Virus record (IMG/VR): IMGVR_UViG_3300029309_000343
Coordinates: 1-24,159 of that record
Length of the DNA: 24,159 bases
Strand: one strand, 5' to 3'
Source of the DNA: a virus
Each line of letters begins with the position of its first letter. Position 1 is the stretch's first letter. Below the pieces are notes generated by a model that searched no databases, had not been told where the DNA came from, and saw only the letters and a list, made by a program, of their open reading frames with translations. The position numbers and the translations under genes were made by a program. Shown piece after piece: positions 2,891-13,166 of this stretch.

Positions 2891-3061
2891 ATGATTCAAG
2901 AAAGAATCTATATAGGACTAATCTTGGTATCACTAATAATTATATTATTTGGTGGTGCGTATTTATTGTTGTGGATAGAACACAAGATCATGAGTAAAAA
3001 ATATGATTTTGAAGTAAGACTCCATAAGGGAGAAGTTTTAAACAAAGATAATATTTTCTAA
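2891..3061 (+). CDS. Small single-pass membrane protein (56 aa)
   Basis: A 56-residue ORF, MIQERIYIGLILVSLII..., with one strong membrane segment at about residues 7-29 followed by a charged tail (KIMSKKYDFEVRLHKGE). The start is supported by AGGAGGTTGAAATC just upstream (2877-2890). The stop overlaps the next ATG by one base (TAATG), indicating coupling. Candidates include a membrane-acting early protein such as a superinfection-exclusion factor, but there is no specific evidence. Confidence 0.65.
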   Translation: MIQERIYIGLILVSLIIILFGGAYLLLWIEHKIMSKKYDFEVRLHKGEVLNKDNIF

Positions 3062-3222
3062 TGTGTGAATATTGCGAAACATCAAAATTTATAGAGAATC
3101 ATATATCTTTTGATGTTAAAGTTCAAGTTTGTACAGATTGTGCAATAAAAAATGGTTATAGAACTGTAGATTGGTACAAAGATAATGAGCATAAACTTGA
3201 TTTTGACTGGAGAGAAATCTAA
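3061..3222 (+). CDS. Small CXXC/CXXC zinc-binding protein (53 aa)
   Basis: A 53-residue ORF linked by TAATG overlaps to both neighbours. It begins MCEYCETSKF and carries C2/C5 and C24/C27 (CX2C-X18-CX2C), a pattern of a zinc ribbon or treble-clef-like knuckle. A Trp-rich acidic C-terminus follows (VDWYKDNEHKLDFDW). Such mini zinc proteins are common in phage early regions; role unknown. Confidence 0.65.
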   Translation: MCEYCETSKFIENHISFDVKVQVCTDCAIKNGYRTVDWYKDNEHKLDFDWREI

Positions 3223-4624: not shown

Positions 4625-4882
4625 ATGGGTATGAGAACGTTAATAGAAATGTCAGATAGACAAAAAATTCGCATACTTTTTGAAATGGATCAGGAAATCT
4701 GTTCTCTTGATCCAGAGTTTAATAAAGGATCTCTAAGAAAATATGCATATCAATTTAGTAAATTGTATGGATGGGTTATTTATAGAGAAAATTGTAATTG
4801 TGATAATAAAGCTAAGGGTACTTTAAATATGGATGGTACTCCTAGAAAACACAATAAATATATTAAAGATTGGGCAATATGA
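4625..4882 (+). CDS. Unknown protein (85 aa)
   Basis: An 85-residue protein with a perfect AGGAGGTTGAAATG start cassette (4614-4627). The N-terminal half looks helical (LIEMSDRQKIRILFEMDQEI). The C-terminal half has a C-x-C pair (ENCNCDNKAKG) and a basic stretch. No family recognised. Its stop codon overlaps the start of the transglycosylase-like gene (ATGA), so the two are co-translated. Confidence 0.65.
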   Translation: MGMRTLIEMSDRQKIRILFEMDQEICSLDPEFNKGSLRKYAYQFSKLYGWVIYRENCNCDNKAKGTLNMDGTPRKHNKYIKDWAI

Positions 4883-5304
4883 TAAGTCTTTTGTTATCTT
4901 GTTTTTTGTTAGGGAGTATTGAGCCAACAACGATAAATATCTACAAAATAATCAATACATCTTATCAATGTGAGGTAGCAAAAGAAGTGCAGGAGTGGAT
5001 TCCTTTAATAAACAAATACTTTCAGTCAGAGGAATCCTCTCTTGCCATAACTGTTTTATATTGTGAATCTTCTGGAAGATCTAAAGTTACCGGTAAAAAC
5101 AATGATGGATCTTTTGATCAGGGATTGTTTCAAGTAAATTCAAACACAGAAACATGGTTAGAAGAAAAAATATATAAAAAAGAATTAGATATGTATGATC
5201 CGGAAACTAATGTCAAAGTATCTTCATGGATTGTAAGAAATGTTGGAGATTGGTCTTGGTGGAATAGTAGTAAGAAATGTTGGGATAAACATGACTCCTA
5301 CTAG
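4879..5304 (+). CDS. Secreted lytic transglycosylase-like protein
   Basis: A 141-residue protein starting at ATG 4879, which overlaps the upstream stop as ATGA. It has a short hydrophobic N-terminus (MISLLLSCFLLGS) that may be a signal peptide or anchor. Residues 52-128 resemble an SLT/lysozyme-like domain: LAITVLYCE63SSG supplies the catalytic glutamate, then NNDGSFDQGLFQVNS at 74-88 matches the conserved D-x-G-L-F-Q-x-N block, and later helices include NVKVSSWIVRN. Such enzymes cleave the glycan strands of peptidoglycan. The placement is unusual: it sits in the early region beside the DNA modification genes, not with the holin. It may aid a late step or act on the wall separately from the DUF5675 protein. 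The com-like ORF starts inside its last 14 bases. Confidence 0.7.
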   Translation: MISLLLSCFLLGSIEPTTINIYKIINTSYQCEVAKEVQEWIPLINKYFQSEESSLAITVLYCESSGRSKVTGKNNDGSFDQGLFQVNSNTETWLEEKIYKKELDMYDPETNVKVSSWIVRNVGDWSWWNSSKKCWDKHDSY

Positions 5305-5467
5305 GTTTTTATGTAATCAGTGTGATCTCTGGAAAAAAAGAGGAACTATATTTAGAGGTTTTATTTTTCTTTGTTCTGATTGTGATGTTACCTATTGGAA
5401 AGAGAAAAAAAATTGGTCTAATGATGGAAGAGTTTATTATGCAAATATCAGTACAAAAAGTACCTAA
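5291..5467 (+). CDS. Com-like zinc-finger translational regulator of mom
   Basis: A 58-residue ORF, MTPTRFLCNQC..., with C8, C11, C28 and C31 (CX2C-X16-CX2C), then an acidic/basic Trp-containing stretch and ending ISTKST. The size, cysteine spacing and position, overlapping the first 29 bases of a mom-type gene, match what I recall of phage Mu com. Com is a roughly 62-residue zinc-finger protein that binds mom mRNA and opens its translation start. ATG 5291 overlaps the stop of the transglycosylase-like gene, so its translation is probably coupled to that gene. A longer in-frame start at 5240 would lie entirely inside the upstream gene and lacks support. The regulatory role is inferred from architecture. 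Confidence 0.6.
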   Translation: MTPTRFLCNQCDLWKKRGTIFRGFIFLCSDCDVTYWKEKKNWSNDGRVYYANISTKST

Positions 5468-6152
5468 ATCAGTTTATTCCGATTGGTTGTTAAATAAACA
5501 TTATGCTAAAAGACTTTGTTCAGTTTCTTATGCTTATGGTCTATATATAGATCAAGAGATAAAAGGAGTTGTAACTTATGGTATGAGTCCATCTGCAACT
5601 CTTGCTGAATCAATAGCTGGAGAAAAATATAAAAAAATAGTTTATGAATTAAATAGGTTAATTACTGTTGATGATCTTCCTAAAAATGCTTTAAGTCAAT
5701 TTGTTACAAAATCTTTTAAATTATTACCAAAACCATTAATTATTGTAAGTTTCGCAGATCCAAACAACGGCCACAATGGTTATATTTATCAAGCTACTAA
5801 TTTTATTTATACCGGTATTTCAAGTAACTCAATACAATATACCTTTCCAGATGGTAAAGAGTTTCACTTTAAAAACTTTAGACATAAAAAACATAGTTCT
5901 ACATTTCAAAAAGAAATAGGTAAAACAAAAGATCAAATATCTAATCAAGATATTATAAATTTTTACGATTTACAAAAGAAAAATATTGAGGGTAAGCATA
6001 GATATATACAGATTTTAGGAAGTAAAACAGATAAAAGATCTATAATGAGAGATTTTAAATTAGATGTTTTACAATATCCTAAAGGAGAAAATAAAAATTA
6101 TGAGGTTGAGTTTCAAGATATGAAGATTCAACTTAATTTATTTGGAGGTTGA
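5439..6152 (+). CDS. mom: Mom-family DNA modification enzyme (adenine methylcarbamoylation)
   Basis: A 237-residue protein from ATG 5439. The start was chosen because the Mom-like region begins here and GGAAGAG lies upstream; the longer frame from 5322 overlaps com and encodes a hydrophobic run unlike the family. Landmarks of the Mom acyltransferase (GNAT-like) family are HYAKR at 21-25, YGLYID at 33-38, YELNRL at 69-74, and SFADPNNGHNGYIYQATNF at 104-122. Length is close to Mu Mom (about 231). Mom proteins modify adenine in phage DNA to N6-methylcarbamoyladenine, protecting it from host restriction enzymes. The gene follows and overlaps the com-like ORF, as in Mu. Its last codons GGA GGT TGA double as the ribosome binding site of the next gene. 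Which adenines are modified cannot be told from sequence. Confidence 0.85.
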   Translation: MQISVQKVPKSVYSDWLLNKHYAKRLCSVSYAYGLYIDQEIKGVVTYGMSPSATLAESIAGEKYKKIVYELNRLITVDDLPKNALSQFVTKSFKLLPKPLIIVSFADPNNGHNGYIYQATNFIYTGISSNSIQYTFPDGKEFHFKNFRHKKHSSTFQKEIGKTKDQISNQDIINFYDLQKKNIEGKHRYIQILGSKTDKRSIMRDFKLDVLQYPKGENKNYEVEFQDMKIQLNLFGG

Positions 6153-6154
6153 AT

Positions 6155-6379
6155 ATGAGTGATAAACAAACAATATTAAATATATTAAAAAGAAATGAGA
6201 ATACCTACGTTTGTTCTGGAGTATTTATCTTTGAAAACAGGATCAAAGATTATGCTCAAAGAATTTCAGAGTTAAGAAGTGAGGGACATGACATTATAGG
6301 TTTTGTTTGTACTGAACATAATCATAAATTATTTATGTATAAGTTGAAAGTTGAGTATTTTGTAGATAGCTTGTTTTAA
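6155..6379 (+). CDS. Small winged-helix/HTH-like protein (74 aa)
   Basis: A 74-residue protein from ATG 6155 after GGAGGTTGAAT; the TTG at 6149 lies inside the ribosome binding cassette. The pattern ILNILKRN...RIKDYAQRISELRSEGHDIIGFV resembles the compact winged-helix fold of small phage HTH proteins, with a recognition helix at about residues 29-42 (RIKDYAQRISELRS) and a following beta-wing. It directly follows mom and could regulate the modification or early operon. Stop and next start overlap (TAATG). Confidence 0.55.
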   Translation: MSDKQTILNILKRNENTYVCSGVFIFENRIKDYAQRISELRSEGHDIIGFVCTEHNHKLFMYKLKVEYFVDSLF

Positions 6380-9917: not shown

Positions 9918-12900
9918 ATGGGTTTAACAGATAATATAAGAGGTTTCTTTAAACAACAGGGATCAGATGTAGATAAGAAGATGTATGGAAATGTTCCTAC
10001 TTCTCAAATAGTTTTTCCATTTAATACAGATGCGGGATATTATTCCGGAGTAAATCAAATGAGCCCAGAGGGTAACTCTGCAGCTTTAGCGTGCCTTAAC
10101 GTATTAGGTACTGCTTATTCTGAACCACCTCTTGAAGTGTATATAAAAACAGAAGAGGGATTACAGTTAGTACCGGATCATCCAGCAAGTAATCTTATAA
10201 TGAATCCTAATCCAAACATGAGTTCTAATTTATTTAATAATTATATTATGACTTCGGTTGCTGTTTATGGAGATGCGTTTCTTCTTAAGTTAAAAAATGA
10301 GGGAGGTAATGTTGCACAATTAATACCACTTTTACCAGATATGGTAGAGGTAAAGGGTAACAACGAACAACTTATTACTTCTTACGAATATAAACAAAAA
10401 GGTAATACTTTAGTTATACCTCCGGAAGATATAATCCACCTAAGAGAAAGAATAGATCCTAGAAATCACAGAAGAGGATTAGCTCCTTTAAGATCAGTTA
10501 TGGTAGAAGTTTTAGGAGATGCAGCAGCAAGTCAAATGGGAGCTGCTCTTGTAAAGAATACAGGAGTTCCTAGTGTTGTAATATCTCCTAAAAATGATTT
10601 ATCAATGACAAGCGATGAGGCAGAGAATATAGCAGAAGTATTTGGAAGAAGATTTGGAGGAGAGAACAGAGGTAGGCCTTTAGTAATCTCTGGAGGAGAA
10701 GTAGATATACAAACTCTTTCTTTCAGTCCAAAGGATCTTGAAATAGGAAAACTTAGATACATAAACGAAGAAAGAATATCTGCAGTTTTAGGTGTGCCTG
10801 CAATCCTTGCAGGACTCGGATCAGGACTAGAACGCGCAACCTACAGCAACGTAAGAGAGTTAAGAGAGTTCTTCACAGAACAAAAACTTATACCTAGTTG
10901 GAATCACTTTGCTAATGAATTAACAAAACAACTCTTATTACAAGACTTTGAATCAGATAGTAAATATTGTTTCCGATATAATTTATCAGATGTAAGAGCA
11001 CTTAGTCAGGATGAAGATGCAACAATGGCTAGAATTACACAGGGTTTTAATGCAGGTTTCGTAACTGTTAATGAAGCTAGAACATCTACACAATTACCTC
11101 CACTAGATAATGGAGATTATTTTGTAAGAAACTTATCTATCGTTGAAGTTCCAATTTCTGATTCTGGTAATGCTATTATGTATCAACAAAACAATAATGA
11201 TCAACTAAATTTTAAAGCAAAAATAGGAGATATAAAAGTTGGAGATTCTGTTTCATGGAGTATTGATAAAGATCCTGATCCTCCAAGTACGATAAATGGA
11301 GTAATTAAATCAATAAATACTACAGAAGAAACAGCGTCAGTAAAGGTATGGGCTATCTTAGAAGATGGAGGACACGAAGAAACAGATCGTACAGTAGAGG
11401 TAGAAGTATCTAAATTAAGAGTTATAAGTCCAATAGATACAGAAGAAAAACAATTATCAGCTAGAGTAGAAAAAGCTCTTAAGAAAAAAGTTGAGGATCA
11501 TAATTCAAGTAGTCCAAAGTATAGAGTAACTATTGGTAAATTAAGAAAGGTTTTTGAAAGAGGAGTAGGAGCTTACAGAAATAATCCAGGCAGCGTAAGA
11601 GGTAACGTAACCTCAGCTGATCAATGGGCAATGGCCCGCGTAAATTCGTTCTTAAAAGCATTAAAGACAGGTAAGTTTCCTAGATCTCCTTTTGATACAG
11701 ATTTACTTCCTCCAGATCATCCTGATGCGTCAGATGATAAATACGGCAAACCAAAGAAACCTAGAAGAAGAAAGAAAGCTATTGATAACGTTCCTAGTTA
11801 CATACAGAAGAACGCTAAAAGAGGTTTGGATTTATTAGAGTTCGCTGGTAGTGGTTTAACCGATAAAACCAAAAGAGAGGCCAGAGATATGGCTAATGGA
11901 AAGATTTCAGAAAATAAAGTTATTCGTATGGCCGCATGGTTTAGCAGGCATGAATCAGATTTAGATTCAGATGCTGCTGATGATTACTTGTCTGGAAAAA
12001 TTTTAGAGCCTACAGCTGGCCAAGTTGCTTGGCTACTCTGGGGAGGGGATATATCTAAATCTAACAAGATGAGAGCATACGATTGGGCAAACAGACAAGC
12101 AGAAAAAGTCAAAGAAGAAAAAACGTTTGAATATAATTTATCTGGATGGGAGGAGCCAACAACTAAATATCTTGGACTACCTACAGTAAAACATTATAAG
12201 TCAGAACAAGATAAGAAAGAATTATGGTCTGCTATAAATAACCTAGAAAACGTATGGATAGATTATATGTCCGGAGTATATTCTAAAGAACTAAACAGAC
12301 AAAAAAGAGGGTTAGTAAATGTTGCAAAAGGATCTAACGATTTAGGATCTTTAGAAACTAACGTAGAGATATTTTTATCAGAATCAAAGTTTGATAAAGA
12401 ATTACTTCCTTTGTTTTACAGTATTGGAGATGATTTTACTGTTAGAACTTACGATAATTTATTTCCAGCAAATGATAATTTTAAAGCTGCTGATCCTGTT
12501 GATCTTGATGTAACAATAGATCCAGAAGAATCTATTAGAACAGTATTTACTACAGTAGCAGGGATTCTTCCACAGGGTAGAAGTATTAGAAAGATTGTAG
12601 AAGATGGTTTTTACAGAGGACAAAGAGAAATACCGGTTGCAGCTAGATCATTATTTGAAGATGGTAAGGCTGCTGGATTTGTTCAAGAAAACGCTAAAAA
12701 AGTAATGAACGATCTTAACAATACAACTAAGAGAAGAGTTTTTAAACAAATAGAAAACACAATAAAAGAATTTGAGGATCTAGGAATAGTTAATCCTATA
12801 GCTAATACTCCAGAGGGAGATAGGTTTTTCAATGAATTATCTAAACGCATTAATACTGTTTTAGGAGGACAAAACTTAGGAAGAGCTAAGAATATAGCTA

Positions 12901-13166
12901 GAACTGAAGTAGGTAAGGTTAGTTCTTGGAGTCAAGAGAGAGCAGCTAAATCAACCGGTAAGAATTTAGAAAAAGAGTGGATCAGCAGGAGAGATGGAAT
13001 CGTAAGAGAGGCACATTTTGAGTTAGACAATCAAAGAGTTCCTCTGAATAGTTTTTATCTGTATAATGGAATTAAGTTAGACAGGCCAAGAGATCCTAAC
13101 GCACCGATAGGATTAATTGCAAACTGTAGATGTAGTGAAGCTTATATTGAGGTAATAGATGAGTGA
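9918..13166 (+). CDS. Portal protein fused to accessory domains and a C-terminal MuF-type head morphogenesis domain
   Basis: A 1082-residue fusion starting right after the terminase stop. Residues 1-420 are an HK97-type portal (SPEGNSAALACLNVLG, IDPRNHRRGLAPLRS, RERISAVLGVPAILAG-like block). About 435-503 is a small beta-barrel resembling SH3/Tudor-like folds (IKVGDSVSWSIDKD...VSKLRVIS). About 514-600 is a basic domain with RVTIGKLRKVFERGVGA and QWAMARVNSFLKALKTGKF. About 624-729 is a module with YIQKNAKRGLDLL, WFSRHE and VAWLLWGGD. The last 200 residues match Mu gpF/SPP1 gp7-type proteins: ARTEVGKVSS near 995, KEWISRRD, then CRC near 1070 after IAN. Portal and minor head protein are usually separate genes, so fusing them with three further modules is unusual. 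No frameshift or internal stop is seen. Confidence 0.9.
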   Translation: MGLTDNIRGFFKQQGSDVDKKMYGNVPTSQIVFPFNTDAGYYSGVNQMSPEGNSAALACLNVLGTAYSEPPLEVYIKTEEGLQLVPDHPASNLIMNPNPNMSSNLFNNYIMTSVAVYGDAFLLKLKNEGGNVAQLIPLLPDMVEVKGNNEQLITSYEYKQKGNTLVIPPEDIIHLRERIDPRNHRRGLAPLRSVMVEVLGDAAASQMGAALVKNTGVPSVVISPKNDLSMTSDEAENIAEVFGRRFGGENRGRPLVISGGEVDIQTLSFSPKDLEIGKLRYINEERISAVLGVPAILAGLGSGLERATYSNVRELREFFTEQKLIPSWNHFANELTKQLLLQDFESDSKYCFRYNLSDVRALSQDEDATMARITQGFNAGFVTVNEARTSTQLPPLDNGDYFVRNLSIVEVPISDSGNAIMYQQNNNDQLNFKAKIGDIKVGDSVSWSIDKDPDPPSTINGVIKSINTTEETASVKVWAILEDGGHEETDRTVEVEVSKLRVISPIDTEEKQLSARVEKALKKKVEDHNSSSPKYRVTIGKLRKVFERGVGAYRNNPGSVRGNVTSADQWAMARVNSFLKALKTGKFPRSPFDTDLLPPDHPDASDDKYGKPKKPRRRKKAIDNVPSYIQKNAKRGLDLLEFAGSGLTDKTKREARDMANGKISENKVIRMAAWFSRHESDLDSDAADDYLSGKILEPTAGQVAWLLWGGDISKSNKMRAYDWANRQAEKVKEEKTFEYNLSGWEEPTTKYLGLPTVKHYKSEQDKKELWSAINNLENVWIDYMSGVYSKELNRQKRGLVNVAKGSNDLGSLETNVEIFLSESKFDKELLPLFYSIGDDFTVRTYDNLFPANDNFKAADPVDLDVTIDPEESIRTVFTTVAGILPQGRSIRKIVEDGFYRGQREIPVAARSLFEDGKAAGFVQENAKKVMNDLNNTTKRRVFKQIENTIKEFEDLGIVNPIANTPEGDRFFNELSKRINTVLGGQNLGRAKNIARTEVGKVSSWSQERAAKSTGKNLEKEWISRRDGIVREAHFELDNQRVPLNSFYLYNGIKLDRPRDPNAPIGLIANCRCSEAYIEVIDE

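Follow-up and report, generated by a model that had tools for sequence, protein, structure and literature searches.

A look-alike of the Com-Mom pair in a marine phage fragment: a probable zinc-ribbon microprotein gene overlapping mom

The pair of overlapping genes examined here, a small cysteine-containing open reading frame (ORF) followed by mom, is a look-alike of the com-mom pair of phage Mu in a marine phage fragment, and not a travelling Com-Mom cassette. The window, that is, the whole stretch of DNA analysed, is the 24,159-base linear virus contig IMGVR_UViG_3300029309_000343. We favor, as a fairly probable reading of the whole locus, that the small gene encodes a lineage-specific, probable zinc-ribbon microprotein, that it sits in an exchangeable slot for DNA-modification genes, and that its tie to mom is translational coupling at the most. 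Mom genes are widespread in phages, and a sequence-only reading of this DNA had taken the pair for a Com-Mom cassette; this is a tempting reading, but it is unsupported and is hereby corrected. Directly before mom, a small zinc-ribbon gene and entire DNA methyltransferase genes replace one another; this exchange marks a compact modification/counter-restriction slot, and it adds an undescribed microprotein family to the candidates for these functions.

The mom gene and the small gene before it

The two ORFs, the 58 codons of the small one, the 29-nt overlap, and the CX2C-X16-CX2C spacing (C8, C11, C28, and C31 form the presumed zinc module) were all found where the sequence-only reading had placed them, and the cell-wall enzyme that it saw before and overlapping the small ORF is an SLT/lysozyme-like gene (Table 1). 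Its description of a 24-kb phage is not established, because the record is a linear contig and the contigs of relatives extend up to 29 to 31.6 kb. A scan for promoters and terminators returned sites no more numerous than in shuffled sequence.

Table 1. Features of the mom locus in the window
Feature	Position	Strand	Evidence
SLT/lysozyme-like gene, 14-nt overlap with small ORF	4870..5304	+	PF01464 8.4e-10, PF18896 1.1e-8
Small ORF, 58 aa, CX2C-X16-CX2C, probable zinc-ribbon microprotein, com-like only by position	5291..5467	+	Kept in 16 of the 20 close-relative contigs; selection is purifying in its own frame only
Shine-Dalgarno-like GGAAGAG, 6 nt before mom ATG	5426..5432	+	Read from sequence; GGGAGAG or GGGAGGA in several relatives
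Overlap of small ORF and mom, 29 nt	5439..5467	+	In L018, an N6/N4 methyltransferase ORF stops at the same place
mom-family gene, 237 aa, ATG start	5439..6152	+	Matches to PF25680, phrog_1384, Mu Mom, and PDB 8bv8, with motifs
76-aa ORF after mom	6149..6379	+	phrog_4973 4.7e-4; neighbor kept in relatives with and without small ORF

The assignment of the larger gene to the mom type was confirmed. Its product matches the Pfam Mom family (PF25680, 9.6e-36), the PHROG Mom-like family (phrog_1384, 2.8e-53), the solved Mom structure (PDB 8bv8, 1.9e-12), and Mu Mom, and the HY..R, ELNR, S.AD, and YQA.N residues are invariant across ten Moms, Mu included. Judged by these matches, 5439-6152 is a genuine Mom-family gene and a new member of the family. 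The family is adenine modifying and occurs in phages and bacteria (PMC7824862). The window Mom is most likely an acyltransferase-fold enzyme that would modify adenines of the phage's own DNA and thereby block host restriction, with the family membership as the ground for this function and Mu as the model for its chemistry. In one collection, 285 records matched the window Mom; an approach to the host through the terminase gave, among the matches listed, none above 30% identity. Longer Mom versions also occur. ORFs of 423 to 424 aa with an extra C-terminal part are present in the IMG/VR contigs L035, L036, L049, L051, L052, and L058-L064 (the extra part in L058 matches phrog_12251 at 3.3e-13 and YunG weakly), and versions of 309 to 315 aa are present at other distant loci (L027, L034, L047, and others). 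Elsewhere in the window, a single frame at 9918-13166 encodes 1,082 aa with a portal match in its N-terminal half and a head-morphogenesis match in its C-terminal part.

The mom protein, used as the query in a search of contigs, yielded 80 loci, among which L001-L020 are close relatives with 72 to 100% identity. The small ORF lies directly 5' of mom in 16 of these 20 contigs, with an overlap of 29 or 41 nt. Upstream of the overlap, nine sequences gave a pN of 0.141 versus a pS of 0.452 in its own frame (pN/pS 0.31), while the other two frames, with a pN of 0.19 to 0.20 versus a pS of 0.14 to 0.19, showed no constraint. All 11 aligned sequences share the four cysteines and CSDCD..YW without change, and the ATG at 5291 is backed by L020, in which no earlier start is possible. 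Because pN falls below pS only in its own frame and these residues are invariant, the 58-codon ORF is, on such sequence measures, a real protein gene. Lack of conservation in relatives, which the sequence-only reading had named as a sign against its proposal, is not what these contigs display.

The small protein is confined to few relatives. An IMG/VR profile search recovered 17 loci in total, namely, the 16 close relatives and the more distant L094; bacterial genome contigs gave no homologues, and isolate phages gave chance-level matches only. Zinc binding is probable from the four invariant cysteines. Two structure predictions reached a pLDDT of 49.7 and 40.8, too uncertain for a fold search. 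A weak profile match to the anti-sigma factor Gin (E 0.0039; PDB 5n7y) was considered and rejected as an indication of a Gin-like anti-sigma role; being a single weak match, it was read as generic zinc-ribbon likeness and kept as a lead only. Phages of this group commonly have small CX2C..CX2C ORFs, and we found several other, unrelated families of them. One such ORF, of 53 aa, lies at 3061-3222 in the window and is kept in L014 and L015; it has a weak, subthreshold likeness to the restriction-alleviation protein Lar (E 0.022), and no relation to the 58-aa ORF was found.

The small protein and the distribution of Com

The sequence-only reading had treated the small ORF as a com gene by its resemblance to that of Mu. 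The resemblance stands in cysteine spacing, size, and position, and in these three only. With a Mu Com sequence checked against the Mu record, the Coms of Mu, JD024, B3, Mcat3, and Chuche all matched PF10122 (Zn_ribbon_Com) at 2.7e-9 to 4.3e-22, and each matched at least one PHROG Com family (phrog_13819 or phrog_6417) at 3.4e-17 or better. The window protein and its relatives matched none of the three models, and NCBIfam gave no support for a Com. A six-frame PF10122 search was positive in the five Com records and in 0 of 22 contigs from the window lineage and the distant Mom loci. BLASTP produced no alignment of the small protein with Mu Com, and hhalign against six Coms returned a probability of 3.8%; a run of one Com against an alignment that already included it was circular and did not serve as a control. 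In those six Coms, the CPRC second knuckle and the LL after the first knuckle are invariant; the window family has CSDC and no LL. A Com homologue was accordingly rejected as a candidate after failing in Pfam, PHROGs, NCBIfam, BLASTP, and hhalign, and the small protein is, as far as such comparisons can detect, not homologous to Mu Com.

It had also been suggested that Com control travels with Mom, which was not seen. We examined 12 Mom-encoding isolate phages, which infect Exiguobacterium, Acinetobacter, Proteus, Listeria, Staphylococcus, Mycobacterium, Microbacterium, Enterococcus, Arthrobacter, Salmonella, Vibrio, and Synechococcus; PF10122 was found anywhere in the record in none of the 12, and a CX2C..CX2C ORF overlapping mom was likewise found in none. 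The distant Mom loci lack the small ORF, and two of them (L047 and L048) carry a different, unrelated Cys-rich small ORF before mom. Among five bacterial-genome Mom loci, one (L116, in an Enterobacteriaceae assembly) shows mom preceded by a true Com of the Mu type. In everything sampled here, Mu-type Com is confined to the Mu-like phages and a small number of others. A com-like regulator next to mom in a small phage had been supposed to be little described; in phages other than Mu, Com beside a modification gene is known from annotation or can be detected, the partner being Mom in JD024 and a methylase in B3 and Chuche.

The start of mom and the exchangeable slot before it

Mu Com binds a hairpin that adjoins a translation-inhibiting structure containing the mom start codon (PMC6483171). 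In our folding calculation, the start codon had a probability of being unpaired of 0.00 in Mu and also 0.00 in Chuche, in which a methyltransferase follows Com. The same calculation gave 0.21 for JD024 and 0.72 for B3; the hairpin is thus not clear in every Com phage, and the test does not decide the matter. For the mom start, nine sequences from the window lineage gave a probability of 0.23 to 0.72, and the folds were no stabler than shuffles (z of -0.3 to 1.3). The alignment consensus fold had no pairs at the mom start, the 19 weakly covarying pairs at the junction included none there, and the final 14 codons before mom showed no lowering of the synonymous rate. With a partly unpaired start codon, an empty consensus, no synonymous constraint, and a Shine-Dalgarno-like purine run before the ATG, a Mu-type switch is not indicated at the window mom by these sequence features. 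In Escherichia phage Chuche (L099, 1637), the methyltransferase after Com starts inside a predicted CCCCAC...GTGGGG hairpin like that of Mu, which suggests that the same switch may control the methylase in this phage.

In near relatives, the place of the small ORF before mom is taken by other genes. In L016, L017, and L019, a methyltransferase-like gene lies between the lysozyme-like gene and mom (phrog_757, 5.8e-67, was scored for L016, and the other two were assigned by visible sequence likeness). In L018, an N6_N4 methylase (3.3e-32) fills this slot, and its stop lies 29 nt inside mom, the same overlap as in the window, so that the overlap is a property of the 5' end of mom, independent of the identity of the upstream gene. 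The Moms of L016-L019 are 82 to 88% identical to those of L012-L015, in which the small ORF is present. Conversely, L094 has a copy of the small ORF (47 to 48% identity); an SLT gene and a methylase precede it, and no mom follows. This copy lacks exactly the C-terminal part that overlaps mom and may for that reason be decayed or differently used. In L020, the small ORF is 97% identical, while the Mom is just 73% identical, alike at its ends and diverged in the middle. These findings in L016-L019, L094, and L020 separate both the overlap and Mom from the small protein.

Two further observations concern the same region. The mom gene of L020 (6001-6708) is a mosaic, with ends near-identical to those of the window and a diverged middle, suggesting recombination inside the gene. 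The surroundings of the lysozyme-like gene and mom resemble a hotspot of modification genes, in which phrog_757-type, N6_N4, MT-A70, and Dam genes and the small zinc-ribbon ORF interchange; examples lie upstream of mom in L016-L019, at 4618-5160 in L020, and at 3912-4430 in L018.

Competing explanations and known systems

The claim that the small ORF is com thus fails on several sides: on the Com family models and the profile comparison, on the lack of a Mu-like hairpin, on the exchangeability of the upstream gene, and on its one occurrence without mom. A true but highly diverged homologue of Mu Com would have the identical cysteine spacing and the place before mom, but since PF10122 and both PHROG families are negative where five Mu-like Coms are positive, alignment and profile comparison find nothing, and the Com-invariant LL and CPRC are missing, we regard this as very improbable. 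A second possibility is convergence, in which an unrelated zinc-ribbon protein binds the mom mRNA leader and turns on translation with no Mu-type hairpin. Position, near-equal size, cysteine spacing, the overlap with mom, and retention in 16 of the 20 close-relative contigs would all fit; if true, Com-type control would be a convergent solution, reached in an uncultured marine phage lineage. This account must nevertheless contend with a mom start that has neither stable nor covarying structure, no synonymous constraint before mom, and a Shine-Dalgarno-like site of its own, with closely related Moms that manage without the small ORF, and with the small ORF of L094 that stands without mom, and we consider it a long shot.

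At the other extreme, the small gene might be a passive neighbor, sharing an mRNA with mom and overlapping it through the usual compactness of phages, with neither function nor coupling linking the two. The distant loci speak for this: of 56 mom genes there, 32 are placed between -20 and +60 nt from the stop of an ORF upstream, 19 of these with an overlap, and the genes upstream of mom differ in length and sequence. However, the association with the small ORF persists through the lineage, across Moms differing by up to about one-fourth of their residues, and we hold pure neighborhood to be unlikely. We prefer the reading of a lineage-specific, probably zinc-binding ribbon, nonhomologous to Com as far as detectable, which most likely would act as an independent small nucleic-acid-binding or counter-restriction/host-interaction factor, because its slot is filled with different DNA methyltransferases in near relatives. 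The counter-restriction role is suggested by the gene neighborhood, which is a weak point of this reading. In this preferred reading, the small ORF and mom would be linked by a common mRNA and by their overlap, whose topology is such that ribosomes may pass from gene to gene. All 16 relatives with both genes keep the order, the tight overlap, and the purine-rich site before mom; this retention is equally expected of a regulatory pair and counts against the reading that we prefer.

Among known systems, the Mom family itself (PF25680, phrog_1384; PDB 8bv8) gives a near whole-length match with the four motifs in common; the window protein is just 31% identical to Mu Mom over 140 residues, and its chemistry is presumed from family membership. 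Gin, an anti-sigma-G factor zinc ribbon, resembles the small protein over the C..CD..K.RG..FiC.DC segment, but the Pfam Gin model gave only 0.28, in one family member. The Com and methylase pairs of B3 and Chuche likewise consist of a small zinc-protein gene overlapping a DNA-modification gene, and their Coms match PF10122, whereas the window protein does not. The Mu com-mom operon (AF083977; PMC6483171) shares with the window a CX2C-X16-CX2C gene of near-equal length (62 aa in Mu versus 58 aa) placed before and overlapping mom. The two differ in the overlap (50 nt in Mu, 29 nt in the window), in the mom start codon (GTG versus ATG), in its sequestration by a hairpin, found in Mu and not in the window, and in the gene upstream (gin versus a lysozyme-like gene), and it is in the window lineage that close relatives keep mom without the small gene.
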